Assembly: GCF_008326305.1 (NCBI RefSeq)
Contig: NZ_BIXY01000001.1
Location: forward strand, 248,001-312,000
Direction: 5' to 3'
Source: Dictyobacter arantiisoli
GTDB taxonomy: Bacteria > Chloroflexota > Ktedonobacteria > Ktedonobacterales > Ktedonobacteraceae
DNA: 64,000 nucleotides
The notes under the pieces are model-generated. The model worked only from the letters and a program-made list of their open reading frames with translations. It searched no databases and was not told where the DNA came from. This document shows positions 5,840 through 61,568 of this stretch, one piece after another. Numbering within the stretch: the stretch's first letter is position 1; each line of letters opens with the position of its first letter. Made by a program: the position numbers and the translations under genes.

Positions 5840-5986
5840 AAATCCCTTTCTGAGCATCCGCGGTATGATCAGGTTTCATAGCATAGAACACGGCGCAAGT
5901 GAAAATGGTTGCATGAAAACAAGGAAAATGTATTCATCAAAATGATCTATGTGTAATGTATACACTGGATTATAACGGTTGTGCCC

Positions 5987-6016
5987 TTGACACGTCGGGA
6001 CCCCCTTGGGTATACT
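5987..6016 (+). promoter_or_regulatory. sigma-70-type promoter of the met operon
   Basis: TTGACA at 5987-5992, an 18-bp spacer, and TATACT at 6011-6016. It lies about 85 nt upstream of the SAM-I aptamer and would give a leader of about 630 nt. Confidence 0.7.
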
Positions 6017-6100
6017 CTCACTAACGTAAAAATAAACAGACCAGACAATAATTAGATACAAGTTCACACAACAGAATCAAAAATTGCAGTAATAACTGCT

Positions 6101-6267
6101 CTCATCCAGAGAGGTGGAGGGATACGGCCCTGTGAAGCCCGGCAACCCGCTTTGCAATGTTGCAAGCAGGGTGCCAATTCCGGTAAGATGTGCCTGTAGA
6201 TATACAGTGCATGTTTTGCAAGATGAGGGGAACAGCGATGTAGCAGCCCCCCGTGAGGGGCTTTTTT
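6101..6267 (+). promoter_or_regulatory. SAM-I (S-box) riboswitch with its terminator
   Basis: Binds S-adenosylmethionine and switches off transcription downstream. Conserved S-box blocks are visible in order: CTCATCCAGAGAGGTGGAGG, the GGCCCTGTGAAGCCCGGCAA core, GGTGCCAATTCC, and the closing P1 strand GATGAG (6222-6227) that pairs with CTCATC (6101-6106). A terminator hairpin follows at 6245-6262 with six T. It stands immediately upstream of a T-box leader and then metX. Confidence 0.93.
6245..6267 (+). terminator. SAM-I riboswitch terminator
   Basis: AGCCCC (6245-6250) pairs with GGGGCT (6257-6262), followed by a T-run. It is the expression platform of the S-box. Confidence 0.85.
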
Positions 6268-6319
6268 GTTACCTGTTTCCTGGAATCTCGTGTACCTTAC
6301 AATTGAAATATCGAATGGC

Positions 6320-6626
6320 GTTGAAGAGGAAGAGTAAATGTTAAGGGCGGTTACAGCGAGTTGATAGAGATGAGATGTCAGCACCGTACCGGCATTGAAT
6401 ATGGCCTTAGAGCCGCGGATTGAACCCTTGTATGAGGTAGTAGATTGCGCCGTGAGCTACGTTACAGCTCGAGTGTTATCCAGAAGTGTCCATGGAGCCC
6501 ACAGAATAGAAGTCTGGAAGGGAACGACTGATAACACTCATAAGGTTGCTGCTGTGAGGTAGTGACAAATCAGGGTGGTACCGCGAAGACGTTTACCCCT
6601 CGCCCCTGCAGGGTGAGGGTTTTTTT
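6320..6626 (+). promoter_or_regulatory. T-box leader, probably tRNA-Met specific
   Basis: Senses uncharged tRNA and then antiterminates. The near-invariant T-box GGGTGGTACCGCG lies at 6573-6585. The stem I AGTA motif is at 6333-6336. On the 3' side of stem I, GAAT is followed by ATG at 6401-6403 and a purine, which fits a Met specifier placed after the loop-E GAA. The specifier reading is inferred from sequence pattern and gene context, not from a folded model. The terminator at 6597-6626 overlaps the antiterminator region. This is the second regulator in series before metX. Confidence 0.9.
6597..6626 (+). terminator. T-box terminator
   Basis: A 9-bp stem with one G-T pair (6597-6605 with 6611-6619) is followed by seven T. 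Confidence 0.85.
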
Positions 6627-6653
6627 GTTCCCTTTTCCAGGAAGGAGTGCAAC

Positions 6654-7796
6654 ATGGTAGCACAATTGCAGTACATTAATCACAAAATACAGGTAAAACC
6701 AGAGAATGAAGTGTTGACATTCACTTTTGATCAACTGCTGTTGCAACGCGGTGGACGTCTCGGTCCCGTGACGCTGGCATATGAGACGTGGGGGGAGTTG
6801 AATGCAACCGGTGATAACGCGATTTTGATTACGCATGCCCTGACCGGAAGTTCACATGCTCATGATGTAGAAGATCCGGAAAATCCTAAAGTTGCCTGGT
6901 GGAATCCTTTGATTGGTCCTGGAAAGTATTTTGATACTTCGCGTTTCTTTGTGATTTGCTCCAATATCATTGGAGGCTGCTCGGGCAGCACTGGCCCTTC
7001 TTCCATCAATCCTTTAACCGGACGCCCCTATGGTATGCGTTTTCCCGTGATTACTATCCGCGATATGGTACGGGCGCAGCGGAAACTGATTGAGCATCTG
7101 GGTGTACGGCGTTTAGCCATGGTAGTTGGTGGCTCTATTGGTGGTCAGCAGGCTCTGGAATGGGCGGTCCATTATCCTCATCTGGTCGATAAAGTCATTG
7201 TGATGGCGGCTTCAGCGGCAGTTTCTGCTCAGGCAATTGCTTTTAATGAAGTGGCTCGCCAATCAATCATGGCAGATCCTGCCTGGCTGTGTGGCGATTA
7301 TTTGCCTGGTCAGGGACCGACCACTGGCCTGTCGATTGCACGCATGCTCGCCATGATTACGTATCAAAGCGAAGAGTCTATGGAGATGCGCTTTGCACGC
7401 AATTCGGTGCAGCGTGAGGTGGTAACGGCACCAACCTTCTCGCCTGAGCTGGGTGGACGTTTTGATGTTGAGAACTATCTCTATTATCAGGGTGATCGCC
7501 TGGCCCAACGCTTTGATGCGAATAGCTATCTTTATGTGAGCCGGGCCATGGATCTCTATGACGTGAGCGAAGATTATCTCTCTCTGGATGAGGCCTTGCG
7601 CCGTATCCGTAGCCAGATATTATTTGTGGGTATTCGTTCAGATTTTCTCTTTCCTGCGTCACAGGTCCGCTGGCTGGCAGAGAAAATTCAGGCTGTGGGT
7701 GGTAATGCGCAGTATGCAGAGTTGGATTCTCCCCATGGTCATGATGCCTTCTTAAAAGAATGGTCAAAAATAGTGGATACTCTGCAAGAATTTTAA
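6654..7796 (+). CDS. metX: homoserine O-acetyltransferase
   Basis: Transfers acetyl from acetyl-CoA to homoserine, the committed step of methionine synthesis. It is an alpha/beta-hydrolase protein of 380 residues, normal for MetX. The nucleophile elbow is GGSIGGQ (Ser161), the catalytic Asp lies in VGIRSDFLFP, and the His in SPHGHDAFL (His363). The N-terminal LAYETWGELN and ALTGSSHA blocks are typical of the family. AGGAAGGAG precedes the ATG. It is the first gene of a four-gene run with metY, aspartate kinase and asd, controlled by the SAM-I riboswitch and T-box upstream. A succinyltransferase specificity cannot be excluded from sequence alone. Confidence 0.93.
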   Translation: MVAQLQYINHKIQVKPENEVLTFTFDQLLLQRGGRLGPVTLAYETWGELNATGDNAILITHALTGSSHAHDVEDPENPKVAWWNPLIGPGKYFDTSRFFVICSNIIGGCSGSTGPSSINPLTGRPYGMRFPVITIRDMVRAQRKLIEHLGVRRLAMVVGGSIGGQQALEWAVHYPHLVDKVIVMAASAAVSAQAIAFNEVARQSIMADPAWLCGDYLPGQGPTTGLSIARMLAMITYQSEESMEMRFARNSVQREVVTAPTFSPELGGRFDVENYLYYQGDRLAQRFDANSYLYVSRAMDLYDVSEDYLSLDEALRRIRSQILFVGIRSDFLFPASQVRWLAEKIQAVGGNAQYAELDSPHGHDAFLKEWSKIVDTLQEF

Positions 7797-7818: not shown

Positions 7819-9171
<1,353 letters not shown>

Positions 9172-9264: not shown

Positions 9265-10749
9265 ATGGAACAATCTGTTTGTGTTTTAAAATTTGGTGGT
9301 ACGTCGGTTGGTAGTGGAGAACGTATCCGTCGTGTCGCCTCCATTATTGCTGATACTCGCAATGATCCGAAAACCCCGTTTCCGGTGGTGGTCGTTTCCG
9401 CCATGTCTGGTGTCACCGATCAACTGCTACGAATTGCGCGTGCGACTTCATCTGATGATCTGCCGGCTTGTGAGCAAGAATTAGCTTCTCTCCGCCAGAA
9501 GCATCTGGATGCAGTTGCAAAAGTGACCGCTGAGGGCGAGGCTCGCACGCAATTGTTGCAGGATATCGATAGTGCTCTGGAAGGTTTAGCGCGTGATGTT
9601 CAGATCTTGCGCGAAGCTACCCATGCAAACGATATGGTGCATTTACATACCGCGGCAGTCGCATCCTGGGGTGAGCGTCTCTCTATTTTGCTTGTTTCAG
9701 CAGCGACTCGTGAACATGGAGTGCAGGCAGAGCCAGTACGTAAAGAGGTCATTATTACTACCCATCCTCCACATGATCCTGAGCAGCCCTTTGGCGTGGT
9801 CGAGGGGGCGGAGCCATTGCTTGAGGAAACACGCACCAATGCCCATACCTTGATCCATCCTTTGGTGCAAAATGGCTGTGTGCCAATTGCAGCCGGATTT
9901 ATGGGCCGCACAATTACAGGTTTTGTAACAACCCTGGGACGTAATGGTTCTGACTATTCCGCAACAGTGATCGGTGCAGCGCTAGACTGTGTTGAAGTCT
10001 CTATTTATACCGACGTGGATGGCGTATTATCCGCCGATCCTCGTCTGGTGGCGAATACACGCTTGCTGCCCCATCTCTCATATGCAGAAGCTGCACGTCT
10101 CTCCTGGTTTGGCGCAAAAGTCTTGCATCCACGTACCTTGATCCCCATCGCTCCACGCAACATTCCTGTGCGAGTACGTAACTCGTTCCGTCCCTATATT
10201 CGCGGGACAATTATTGGTCCAGTTGGTCATACTCCCAGTGGCGCTGGCGCGATCACGACACGGCGAAAGTTGGCCCTGATTACTGTAGAAAGCACAGATC
10301 TGTTTGGTGCTCCAGAAAATGCTGGTCAGGTCTTTGCATTGGCTGCCAAAGCCGGTGCCGCCCCGGTTGCGATCTGTTCTTCATCTGGACATCATCTTTC
10401 CTTTGTGGTAGATGAGAAGGCCATAGACTCTGTTGTTGCATTGCTGCATCATGTGATGGACCCGGCCCTCTGGACGGTGAGTCAGCGGCGTGGATTGGCC
10501 GCCTGCGCCTGCATCGGTTCTGGTTTCACCGCTGATCCTATGAGTTCGGCGCGCGCGATCACAGCCCTGGCCAGTGAGCGTATTCCTGTTATCTCACAGG
10601 GTGCTTCGGAGCAAGGTATTACCCTGATTGTTGAGGATCGTTCCAGCGAGCGGGCGTTACGCTGTTTGCATCGGGATCTGGTCGCTCCGGTTATTCCATT
10701 GGTGCGTCATCCCGCTAATGTGAGCGAGGTAGCACTGCGTAAAGCCTGA
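9265..10749 (+). CDS. lysC: aspartate kinase
   Basis: Phosphorylates aspartate, the entry step to Lys, Thr and Met. The N-terminal VLKFGGTSVGSGERI is the family signature. NGSDYSATVIGAAL and YTDVDGVLSADPRLV form the catalytic and nucleotide site. Two ACT-type regulatory segments occupy about 330-480. The 494-residue length resembles the kinase half of ThrA-type enzymes but without a homoserine dehydrogenase domain. Its place between metY and asd supports supply of precursor for methionine. Feedback specificity cannot be told from the sequence, so the symbol is generic. Confidence 0.92.
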   Translation: MEQSVCVLKFGGTSVGSGERIRRVASIIADTRNDPKTPFPVVVVSAMSGVTDQLLRIARATSSDDLPACEQELASLRQKHLDAVAKVTAEGEARTQLLQDIDSALEGLARDVQILREATHANDMVHLHTAAVASWGERLSILLVSAATREHGVQAEPVRKEVIITTHPPHDPEQPFGVVEGAEPLLEETRTNAHTLIHPLVQNGCVPIAAGFMGRTITGFVTTLGRNGSDYSATVIGAALDCVEVSIYTDVDGVLSADPRLVANTRLLPHLSYAEAARLSWFGAKVLHPRTLIPIAPRNIPVRVRNSFRPYIRGTIIGPVGHTPSGAGAITTRRKLALITVESTDLFGAPENAGQVFALAAKAGAAPVAICSSSGHHLSFVVDEKAIDSVVALLHHVMDPALWTVSQRRGLAACACIGSGFTADPMSSARAITALASERIPVISQGASEQGITLIVEDRSSERALRCLHRDLVAPVIPLVRHPANVSEVALRKA

Positions 10750-10766: not shown

Positions 10767-10848
10767 ACACACAAGAAAAACACAGCCCGGGATGGGAATA
10801 GCTAGCGGTGCATCCCCATTCCATCGAAGACAAGATGGCGGAAGAAAT

Positions 10849-11931
10849 ATGGAGACACAGGAACGAAAGAGAATACCCGTTGCCGTATTGGGCGCGACGG
10901 GTATGGTTGGTCAGCGTTTTATTGAACTTTTGCAGGATCATCCCTGGTTTGAACTGGTTGGCCTCGGTGCTTCTGAAAAACATAATGGACGCCCCTACGC
11001 TGAAGTAACAGCCTGGCGACTGACAGGCAGCGATATGCCAGTGGGGGCCGCGCAAATGCCGGTGGTAGCCTGTACGCCAGAGGCATTGCCAGATGTGAAA
11101 GTGGTCTTTTCGGCCTTACCTGGCGAGATTGCGGGTGAGATTGAGCAGGCTTTTGCGCAGGCTGGCGTGGCTGTATTTAGCAATGCCAAAAATTATCGCA
11201 TGGCGCCAGATGTGCCGTTGCTCATTCCAGAGGTCAATGCCAATCACATAGCGGCTGTCGCACAACAGCGCAAACAGCGCGGCTGGCCGGGTTTTATTAT
11301 TACCAATGCTAATTGTGCCACAACCCCATTAGTGATGGCTCTCAAGCCTTTGCAGCTGGCATTTGGTGTCACTAAAGTGCTTATCACAACTCTGCAATCA
11401 ATTTCTGGTGCGGGTTATCCCGGCCTACCCTCCTATGACATCTTAGATAATGCTATTCCTTATATTAGTGGTGAAGAAGAAAAACTTGAGTGTGAGACTC
11501 AGAAGATGTTGGGCGAGTGGCGCGAGGGCCAGGGATTTGTGGATGCTCCGATTGTGGTGAGTGCGCATTGTAACCGTGTGGCGACACGTGAGGCTCATCT
11601 GGAATGTGCCAGTATCGAGTTGGGGCGCAACGATGTGAGTCCAGAAGAGATTATTGCTGCCTGGGAGAACTATCGGCCAGCGTCGCAGCAGGCTCAATTG
11701 CCCACTGCCCCTGAGCACACGCTGATCTATCGGCATGAGCTTGATCGCCCACAGACACTCCGTGATCGCGATGCTGGACATGGCATGACGGTGACACTGG
11801 GACGCCTGCGCCGTTGTCCTATCCTCAGCTATAAATTCGTCATGTTGGGTCATAACACCATTCGCGGTGCCGCGGGCGGCTCAATCTTAAATGCTGAGTG
11901 GTGTGTACAGCAGGGATTATTACCGCTGTAA
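10849..11931 (+). CDS. asd: aspartate-semialdehyde dehydrogenase
   Basis: Reduces aspartyl phosphate to aspartate semialdehyde. The NADP-binding loop is VLGATGMVGQRFIELL near the N-terminus. The active-site Cys156 is in NANCATTPL. The protein belongs to the archaeal/fungal-like Asd branch rather than the E. coli type (inferred from the LGATGMVGQRF and NCATTPLV patterns). A longer frame opens at 10792, but ATG 10849 is preceded by GGCGGAAG and gives the normal length of 360 residues. Its stop codon merges with the terminal repeat of the structured element that follows. Confidence 0.93.
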   Translation: METQERKRIPVAVLGATGMVGQRFIELLQDHPWFELVGLGASEKHNGRPYAEVTAWRLTGSDMPVGAAQMPVVACTPEALPDVKVVFSALPGEIAGEIEQAFAQAGVAVFSNAKNYRMAPDVPLLIPEVNANHIAAVAQQRKQRGWPGFIITNANCATTPLVMALKPLQLAFGVTKVLITTLQSISGAGYPGLPSYDILDNAIPYISGEEEKLECETQKMLGEWREGQGFVDAPIVVSAHCNRVATREAHLECASIELGRNDVSPEEIIAAWENYRPASQQAQLPTAPEHTLIYRHELDRPQTLRDRDAGHGMTVTLGRLRRCPILSYKFVMLGHNTIRGAAGGSILNAEWCVQQGLLPL

Positions 11932-61227: not shown

Positions 61228-61265
61228 AAAAAACCCCCGTCCCTTCCGTCGCTTTTGAAGGGACG
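61228..61265 (-). terminator. argHG T-box terminator
   Basis: CGTCCCTTC pairs with GAAGGGACG (61257-61265 with 61238-61246), then a G-run and TTTTTT on the minus strand. Confidence 0.85.
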
Positions 61266-61535
61266 AGAGTGCAGGGGATTTACCCTATCACGCCCGTGGT
61301 ACCACCCTAATTGTCTTTCTGGTTGTATTTACATAGACCGTGAAAGACCACTTTTCCTGGTTGAGTCATACGTGGGAACCACCCACCTGTCCTACTTGCT
61401 CCTGGCAGATCCGCAGAATGCGGGGTGCTCATCAAAGCTTTCTTCGGTCAACTGCTCACGAATGCGTTTTGAGAAGGCATCACCATTCCGAACTTCCACT
61501 CTTCTTCGGATCGCTGTCGGCTGCTACTCTCATAC
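61228..61535 (-). promoter_or_regulatory. T-box leader upstream of argHG
   Basis: On the minus strand the T-box TTAGGGTGGTACCACGGGCG lies at 61291-61310, with the AGTA motif of stem I at 61525-61528. A terminator (9-bp stem 61238-61246 with 61257-61265, six T at 61228-61233) follows, then the argH start. The specifier is not settled: a CGA (Arg) reading is possible at 61444-61446 within GACCGAAG, but other codons also fit. Arginine specificity is inferred from gene content. Confidence 0.9.
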
Positions 61536-61568
61536 TAATTTCGCTCGACGCAGGTTATGTTTTGTATT

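Follow-up and report, generated by a model that had tools for sequence, protein, structure and literature searches.

The main text of Sherlock et al. (2022, RNA Biol., PMC9481103) describes seven cases of a SAM-I riboswitch followed by a T-box(Met) ahead of metX/metY, an arrangement assigned NOT A AND B logic, and also records two cases of the opposite order, T-box then SAM-I. A survey of contiguous riboswitches (PMC12452182) includes T-box/SAM pairs in Bacillota; Ktedonobacteria were not found in its main text, and Chloroflexi are unmentioned in the main text of PMC9481103, with whose species ours probably overlap. Our literature search found no paper linking Ktedonobacter and T-box riboswitches. 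The Xanthomonas campestris SAM-I element also binds initiator tRNA (PMC7270179); the same paper cites the S-box and T-box of the Clostridium acetobutylicum sulfur operon.

We analyzed a 64,000-nucleotide stretch of DNA from the soil bacterium Dictyobacter arantiisoli (the window), in which an original prediction had placed two complete leader regulators, each with its own terminator, between one promoter and metX at 6101-6626. All of these parts were found, and the limits proved about right: the two elements occupy 6099-6229 and 6312-6610, and the last terminator extends to 6626. We conclude, with a probability of about 0.9, that the metX leader is probably a transcription gate with two inputs, of the known SAM-I plus T-box(Met) kind. 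Both elements, both terminators, the single promoter, the methionine specifier and their conservation are read directly from the DNA.

The genes downstream are those originally named, all on the + strand and all scoring over curated cut-offs: metX, encoding homoserine O-acetyltransferase (6654..7796; NF001209, 463 bits, cut-off 331), metY, encoding O-acetylhomoserine sulfhydrylase/homocysteine synthase (7843..9171; NF006096, 749 bits, cut-off 726), lysC, encoding aspartate kinase (9265..10749; TIGR00657, 328 bits), and asd, encoding aspartate-semialdehyde dehydrogenase (10792..11931; TIGR00978, 413 bits), the true start of which is possibly downstream of 10792. Among named genomes the best matches to MetX were those of Dictyobacter kobayashii, vulcani, and aurantiacus (84-85% identical), all placed in the genus of the window by the genome search. 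By profile search lysC and asd are each present in the genome as a single over-cut-off copy, and no strong promoter-like site was seen ahead of either gene on the + strand. The LysX-type lysine pathway has no need for asd. As the lysine genes of this genome, read by eye from the sequence, resemble the LysX type and lie behind tandem Lys T-boxes, lysine synthesis here would not need asd. The two T-boxes in series have AAG (Lys) specifiers and precede a LysX-like gene (L008/L010, G000:C14:20925-21536).

The SAM-I (S-box) aptamer (6099..6229, +) matches Rfam RF00162 with 72.2 bits (gathering score 44.4, E 6e-15). In the Rfam profile search the match spans model positions 1-108 with both consensus and structure retained, and it was the sole match in the window when all Rfam families were run at curated cut-offs. 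The aptamer is followed by an antiterminator (6227..6250, +), formed by GGGG of the 3’ P1 strand and CCCC in the 5’ half of the terminator, and by an intrinsic terminator (6245..6268, +) having six pairs at 6245-6262 and then T6. The GATGAGGGG...CCCC arrangement was retained across 15 aligned leaders. Fold prediction gave the competition between the 3’ P1 strand and the terminator that defines an S-box expression platform: nucleotides 6218-6252, lacking the 5’ P1 strand, formed the GGGG/CCCC pairing, which occupies the 5’ half of the terminator. When the complete terminator was included (6218-6258 was also folded), the terminator hairpin prevailed over the GGGG/CCCC antiterminator. The S-box of the window is predicted to bind SAM and then to end transcription. 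A permissive Rfam scan also returned an asX2 match on the opposite strand (6244-6325, −, E 0.33), which was discarded as chance.

The T-box leader (6312..6610, +) matches the full RF00230 model (positions 1-219) with 88.3 bits (E 9.5e-20). As the gathering score of RF00230 is 93 bits, a default Rfam scan misses this T-box, and it was recovered by a permissive scan of 5900-6700. Of the 19 T-boxes of the genome having E < 1e-6, 16 score below 93 bits and three pass. Default Rfam cut-offs thus miss these T-boxes, and surveys would undercount SAM-I/T-box tandems. The antiterminator with its UGGUACC bulge (6572..6607, +, eight pairs) lies within the RF00230 match and competes with an intrinsic terminator (6597..6626, +) of nine pairs at 6597-6619 followed by T7. 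The antiterminator was 100% paired in 19 aligned leaders, whereas sliding controls dropped to 50-55%. Three of its pairs are altered on both sides between Ktedonobacteria and another Chloroflexota class in these 19 sequences, although they reflect one lineage split and count as one event in three sequences rather than as nine independent changes. The window contains a second T-box (61256-61557, −, 69.6 bits), which lies ahead of argH and has the specifier CGC (Arg).

Only one strong promoter-like site was found ahead of metX by consensus scan: TTGACA (−35), an 18-nt spacer and TATACT (−10) at 5987..6016 (+), with 11 of 12 consensus matches. The transcription unit would begin at about 6024, before the 6101 boundary given originally. 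In each of the 29 tandem leaders scored, a sigma-70-like site with 9-11/12 matches occupies this position. These data suggest that the S-box and T-box share one promoter and one transcript. A second promoter between the two elements would instead give two independent units with the T-box acting alone, for which the main text of PMC9481103 provides a precedent in the adenine/T-box(Tyr) tandem of Clostridium botulinum. The candidate site is a weak TACAAT (6298-6303 in the window; −35 3/6, 8/12 overall, p ~0.3) just ahead of the T-box in three Dictyobacter species, and it lies within a block, GTGTACYTTACAA at 6290-6303, conserved ahead of the T-box in part of the Ktedonobacteraceae. However, this best internal site is within chance in the window (p 0.26) and no such site was found in the other genomes. 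Between the S-box and T-box of the 25 leaders having enough inter-element sequence, the best site was ≤8/12 and never exceeded shuffled sequence (lowest p 0.25), the consensus scan being blind to other promoter types. Moreover, the sixth −10 position T of the GTGTACYTTACAA block is not kept, and the block is absent from Ktedonobacter and Thermogemmatispora. An internal promoter that lets the T-box act alone is very improbable, though a weak second start at the TACAAT site may exist. The GTACNTNACAA block before the T-box was ruled out both as a promoter and as a genome-wide operator, as it showed no genome enrichment (28 matches versus 44 for the reversed pattern). Note that GTACATAACAA also occurs ahead of the second of the two tandem Lys T-boxes (G000:C14:21199-21209).

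The specifier codon was placed by calibration on the genome’s own T-boxes, using a rule that takes the triplet after GAA or GAAn, five to seven bases ahead of a GAGC-like end. The rule reads CTC for leuS, TCC for serS, TTC for pheS, ACC for thrS, TGG for trpS, GGC for glyS and CAC for hisG, and when applied to the metX T-box it reads ATG at 6401..6403 (+). The ATG is constant in 32 of 32 tandem leaders, generally within the string GAAnATG (where n is A, T, G or C) and as GGGCATG in one. AUG fits the methionine genes downstream, and the methionine specifier originally proposed at these positions was thus upheld. A Tyr specifier, UAU (6400-6402), was ruled out because its first base varies in relatives whereas AUG does not, and the apparent ‘CGG’ specifiers at L035 and L133 were pattern matches inside the S-box; the T-boxes of these loci read GAATATGACC and GAAGATGACC.

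The metX T-box would answer to uncharged tRNA-Met. The possibility that it reads another tRNA, or solely initiator tRNA-fMet and not elongator tRNA-Met, draws on the Staphylococcus aureus met T-box, which prefers initiator tRNA and bound it despite an altered specifier (PMC3771891), so that the ligand of a T-box may not follow from its specifier alone. In this genome, moreover, an initiator-like tRNA (CAU) gene is repeated five times in tandem, and four of the copies lack an encoded CCA (L206, G000:C39:234-788). However, the invariant AUG leaves only CAU tRNAs. The genome has three CAU tRNA species. The UGGU bulge matches a tRNA with A73, and as every CAU tRNA detected in the genome carries this base, initiator and elongator are not separable from sequence. 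With either tRNA the methionine gate would remain intact, and we consider it very unlikely that another tRNA, or the initiator alone, is read.

T-boxes elsewhere in the genome gave several side observations. The leader of the leuS T-box, with specifier CTC, harbors an entire tRNA-Ala(GGC) gene, its CCA encoded, which separates Stem III from the antiterminator (L003:1501-1839, G000:C19:36546-36884; also L219-L233), and a tRNA-Ala(CGC) gene lies just upstream of the nested gene. Each of the 15 loci examined, which come from 15 genomes of the family, shows this nesting. RNase P processing of the tRNA would part the codon-reading half of the leuS leader from its antiterminator. No description of a nested tRNA in a leuS T-box leader was found in the literature searched, and this arrangement is perhaps more novel than the metX tandem. 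T-boxes also precede carA (specifier CGC) and argC, the latter appearing to have CCC in the same place, and a gene encoding an AlaX-like editing protein of 242 residues lies behind a T-box whose specifier appears to be ATC (Ile) (L009, G000:C44:22024-22455).

In the proposed two-input gate, transcription would start at about 6024 and proceed into the S-box. Bound SAM would stabilize P1 and keep the 3’ P1 strand off the 5’ half of the terminator, and transcription would stop at about 6268. When SAM is low the 3’ P1 strand would instead build the antiterminator and polymerase would continue. An uncharged tRNA with anticodon CAU would then pair with the specifier AUG (6401-6403) and hold the T-box antiterminator through its free 3’ end, the contact being UGGU to A73-CCA. 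A charged tRNA could not do so, and transcription would stop at about 6626. The metX-metY-lysC-asd transcript would therefore require low SAM together with the presence of uncharged tRNA-Met. Ligand binding, termination, the AND behavior and the tRNA-Met species read are all inferred from the DNA features given above.

S-boxes, one or two per genome, were found in 43 of 47 Ktedonobacteria genomes, and those inspected lie mostly before metK or metX. Both elements were detected by Rfam at metX in 29 of the 47 genomes. Ktedonobacteria usually have the SAM-I plus T-box pair, which is standard in the class. The same pair, which the original note proposed to look for in other Chloroflexota, was also detected by Rfam in three genomes of a second class (G349, G364 and G389), which belong to one family outside Ktedonobacteria in the phylum sample. 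In the same sample, the motifs at loci labelled Chloroflexia and Thermomicrobiales indicate an S-box without a T-box. Within Ktedonobacteria some metX leaders have only the S-box (G020, G028, G029 and G013), others have only the T-box (D. kobayashii, G024, plus G002, G005 and G006), one has neither (G001) and one has the S-box plus a T-box core lacking Stem I (G011). G044 and G008 were left unscored owing to an assembly gap or contig end at the expected S-box place; two apparent T-box cores in G044 (L127/L160) were rejected as an artefact of an adjoining assembly gap of N.

Some of the leaders that lack one element retain traces of it. The D. kobayashii leader (L126/L146) has lost the 5’ P1 strand plus part of P2 and gives no Rfam S-box, whereas the 3’ part and terminator are kept; from its sequence it appears to be a natural S-box knock-out within the genus Dictyobacter. 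That the S-box of the window is likewise a relic, leaving the operon under T-box control alone, has this congener as a precedent but is extremely unlikely, as the window S-box is complete (72 bits), possesses its antiterminator and terminator, and has been conserved by most relatives. In three S-box-only leaders (L051, L112 and L114) the T-box sensing part is gone and a second terminator is retained after the S-box terminator; in L112 and L114 this is plainly the former T-box terminator. In the genomes of these two loci metY is also gone from the operon (loci L165 and L195).

A joint reading, which we offer tentatively and at slightly below even chances, is that the pair is the ancestral and standard control of the methionine operon in Ktedonobacteria, and that through the only lysC and asd it would set the whole aspartate-semialdehyde supply by SAM plus Met-tRNA charging. 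A separate assembly would have taken place in another Chloroflexota class, and the pair would decay in a set way, with the S-box lost in some lines and the T-box sensing part lost with retention of its terminator in others. What had been a published oddity of seven cases becomes the rule across a class, and nature offers dozens of variants: leaders with the intact pair, with just the S-box or just the T-box, and with relics of either element. With these variants, the question of why a cell needs to sense the product as well as charging can be tested directly between near relatives, such as Dictyobacter species that differ in whether their S-box works.

The tandem of the window belongs to a published kind, because the main text of PMC9481103 contains the same pair, genes and logic, and the arrangement is therefore not new. 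The SAM-I/T-box(Met) cases of that text and the window share riboswitch classes, order, separate expression platforms, metX/metY and predicted logic, whereas in contrast to its seven cases the present set comprises 29 Ktedonobacteria and three other-class genomes, with specifier, promoter and loss states examined. The original description of the arrangement as unusual holds in that it is rare in published surveys (the seven cases in that main text), but not in that it was already reported and is common in Ktedonobacteria. The reverse-order tandem places the same two sensors on one leader in an order opposite to that of the window. Tandems of ppGpp riboswitch and T box(Leu) resemble the present leader in that a T-box and a metabolite riboswitch act in series and have separate expression platforms, but differ in that both are ON switches and the other ligand and genes are not those found here. 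The sulfur operon of Clostridium acetobutylicum also has an S-box and a T-box on one operon, but the layout differs, as the S-box there reportedly regulates a far-end antisense RNA rather than acting in a series leader. In X. campestris (PMC7270179), as proposed for the window, a methionine operon answers to both SAM and uncharged tRNA-Met, although this is done by a single SAM-I element that lacks a T-box bulge or specifier and acts mainly on translation. What is new here is the breadth of occurrence, the constancy of the specifier, the test for a single promoter and the series of natural losses.
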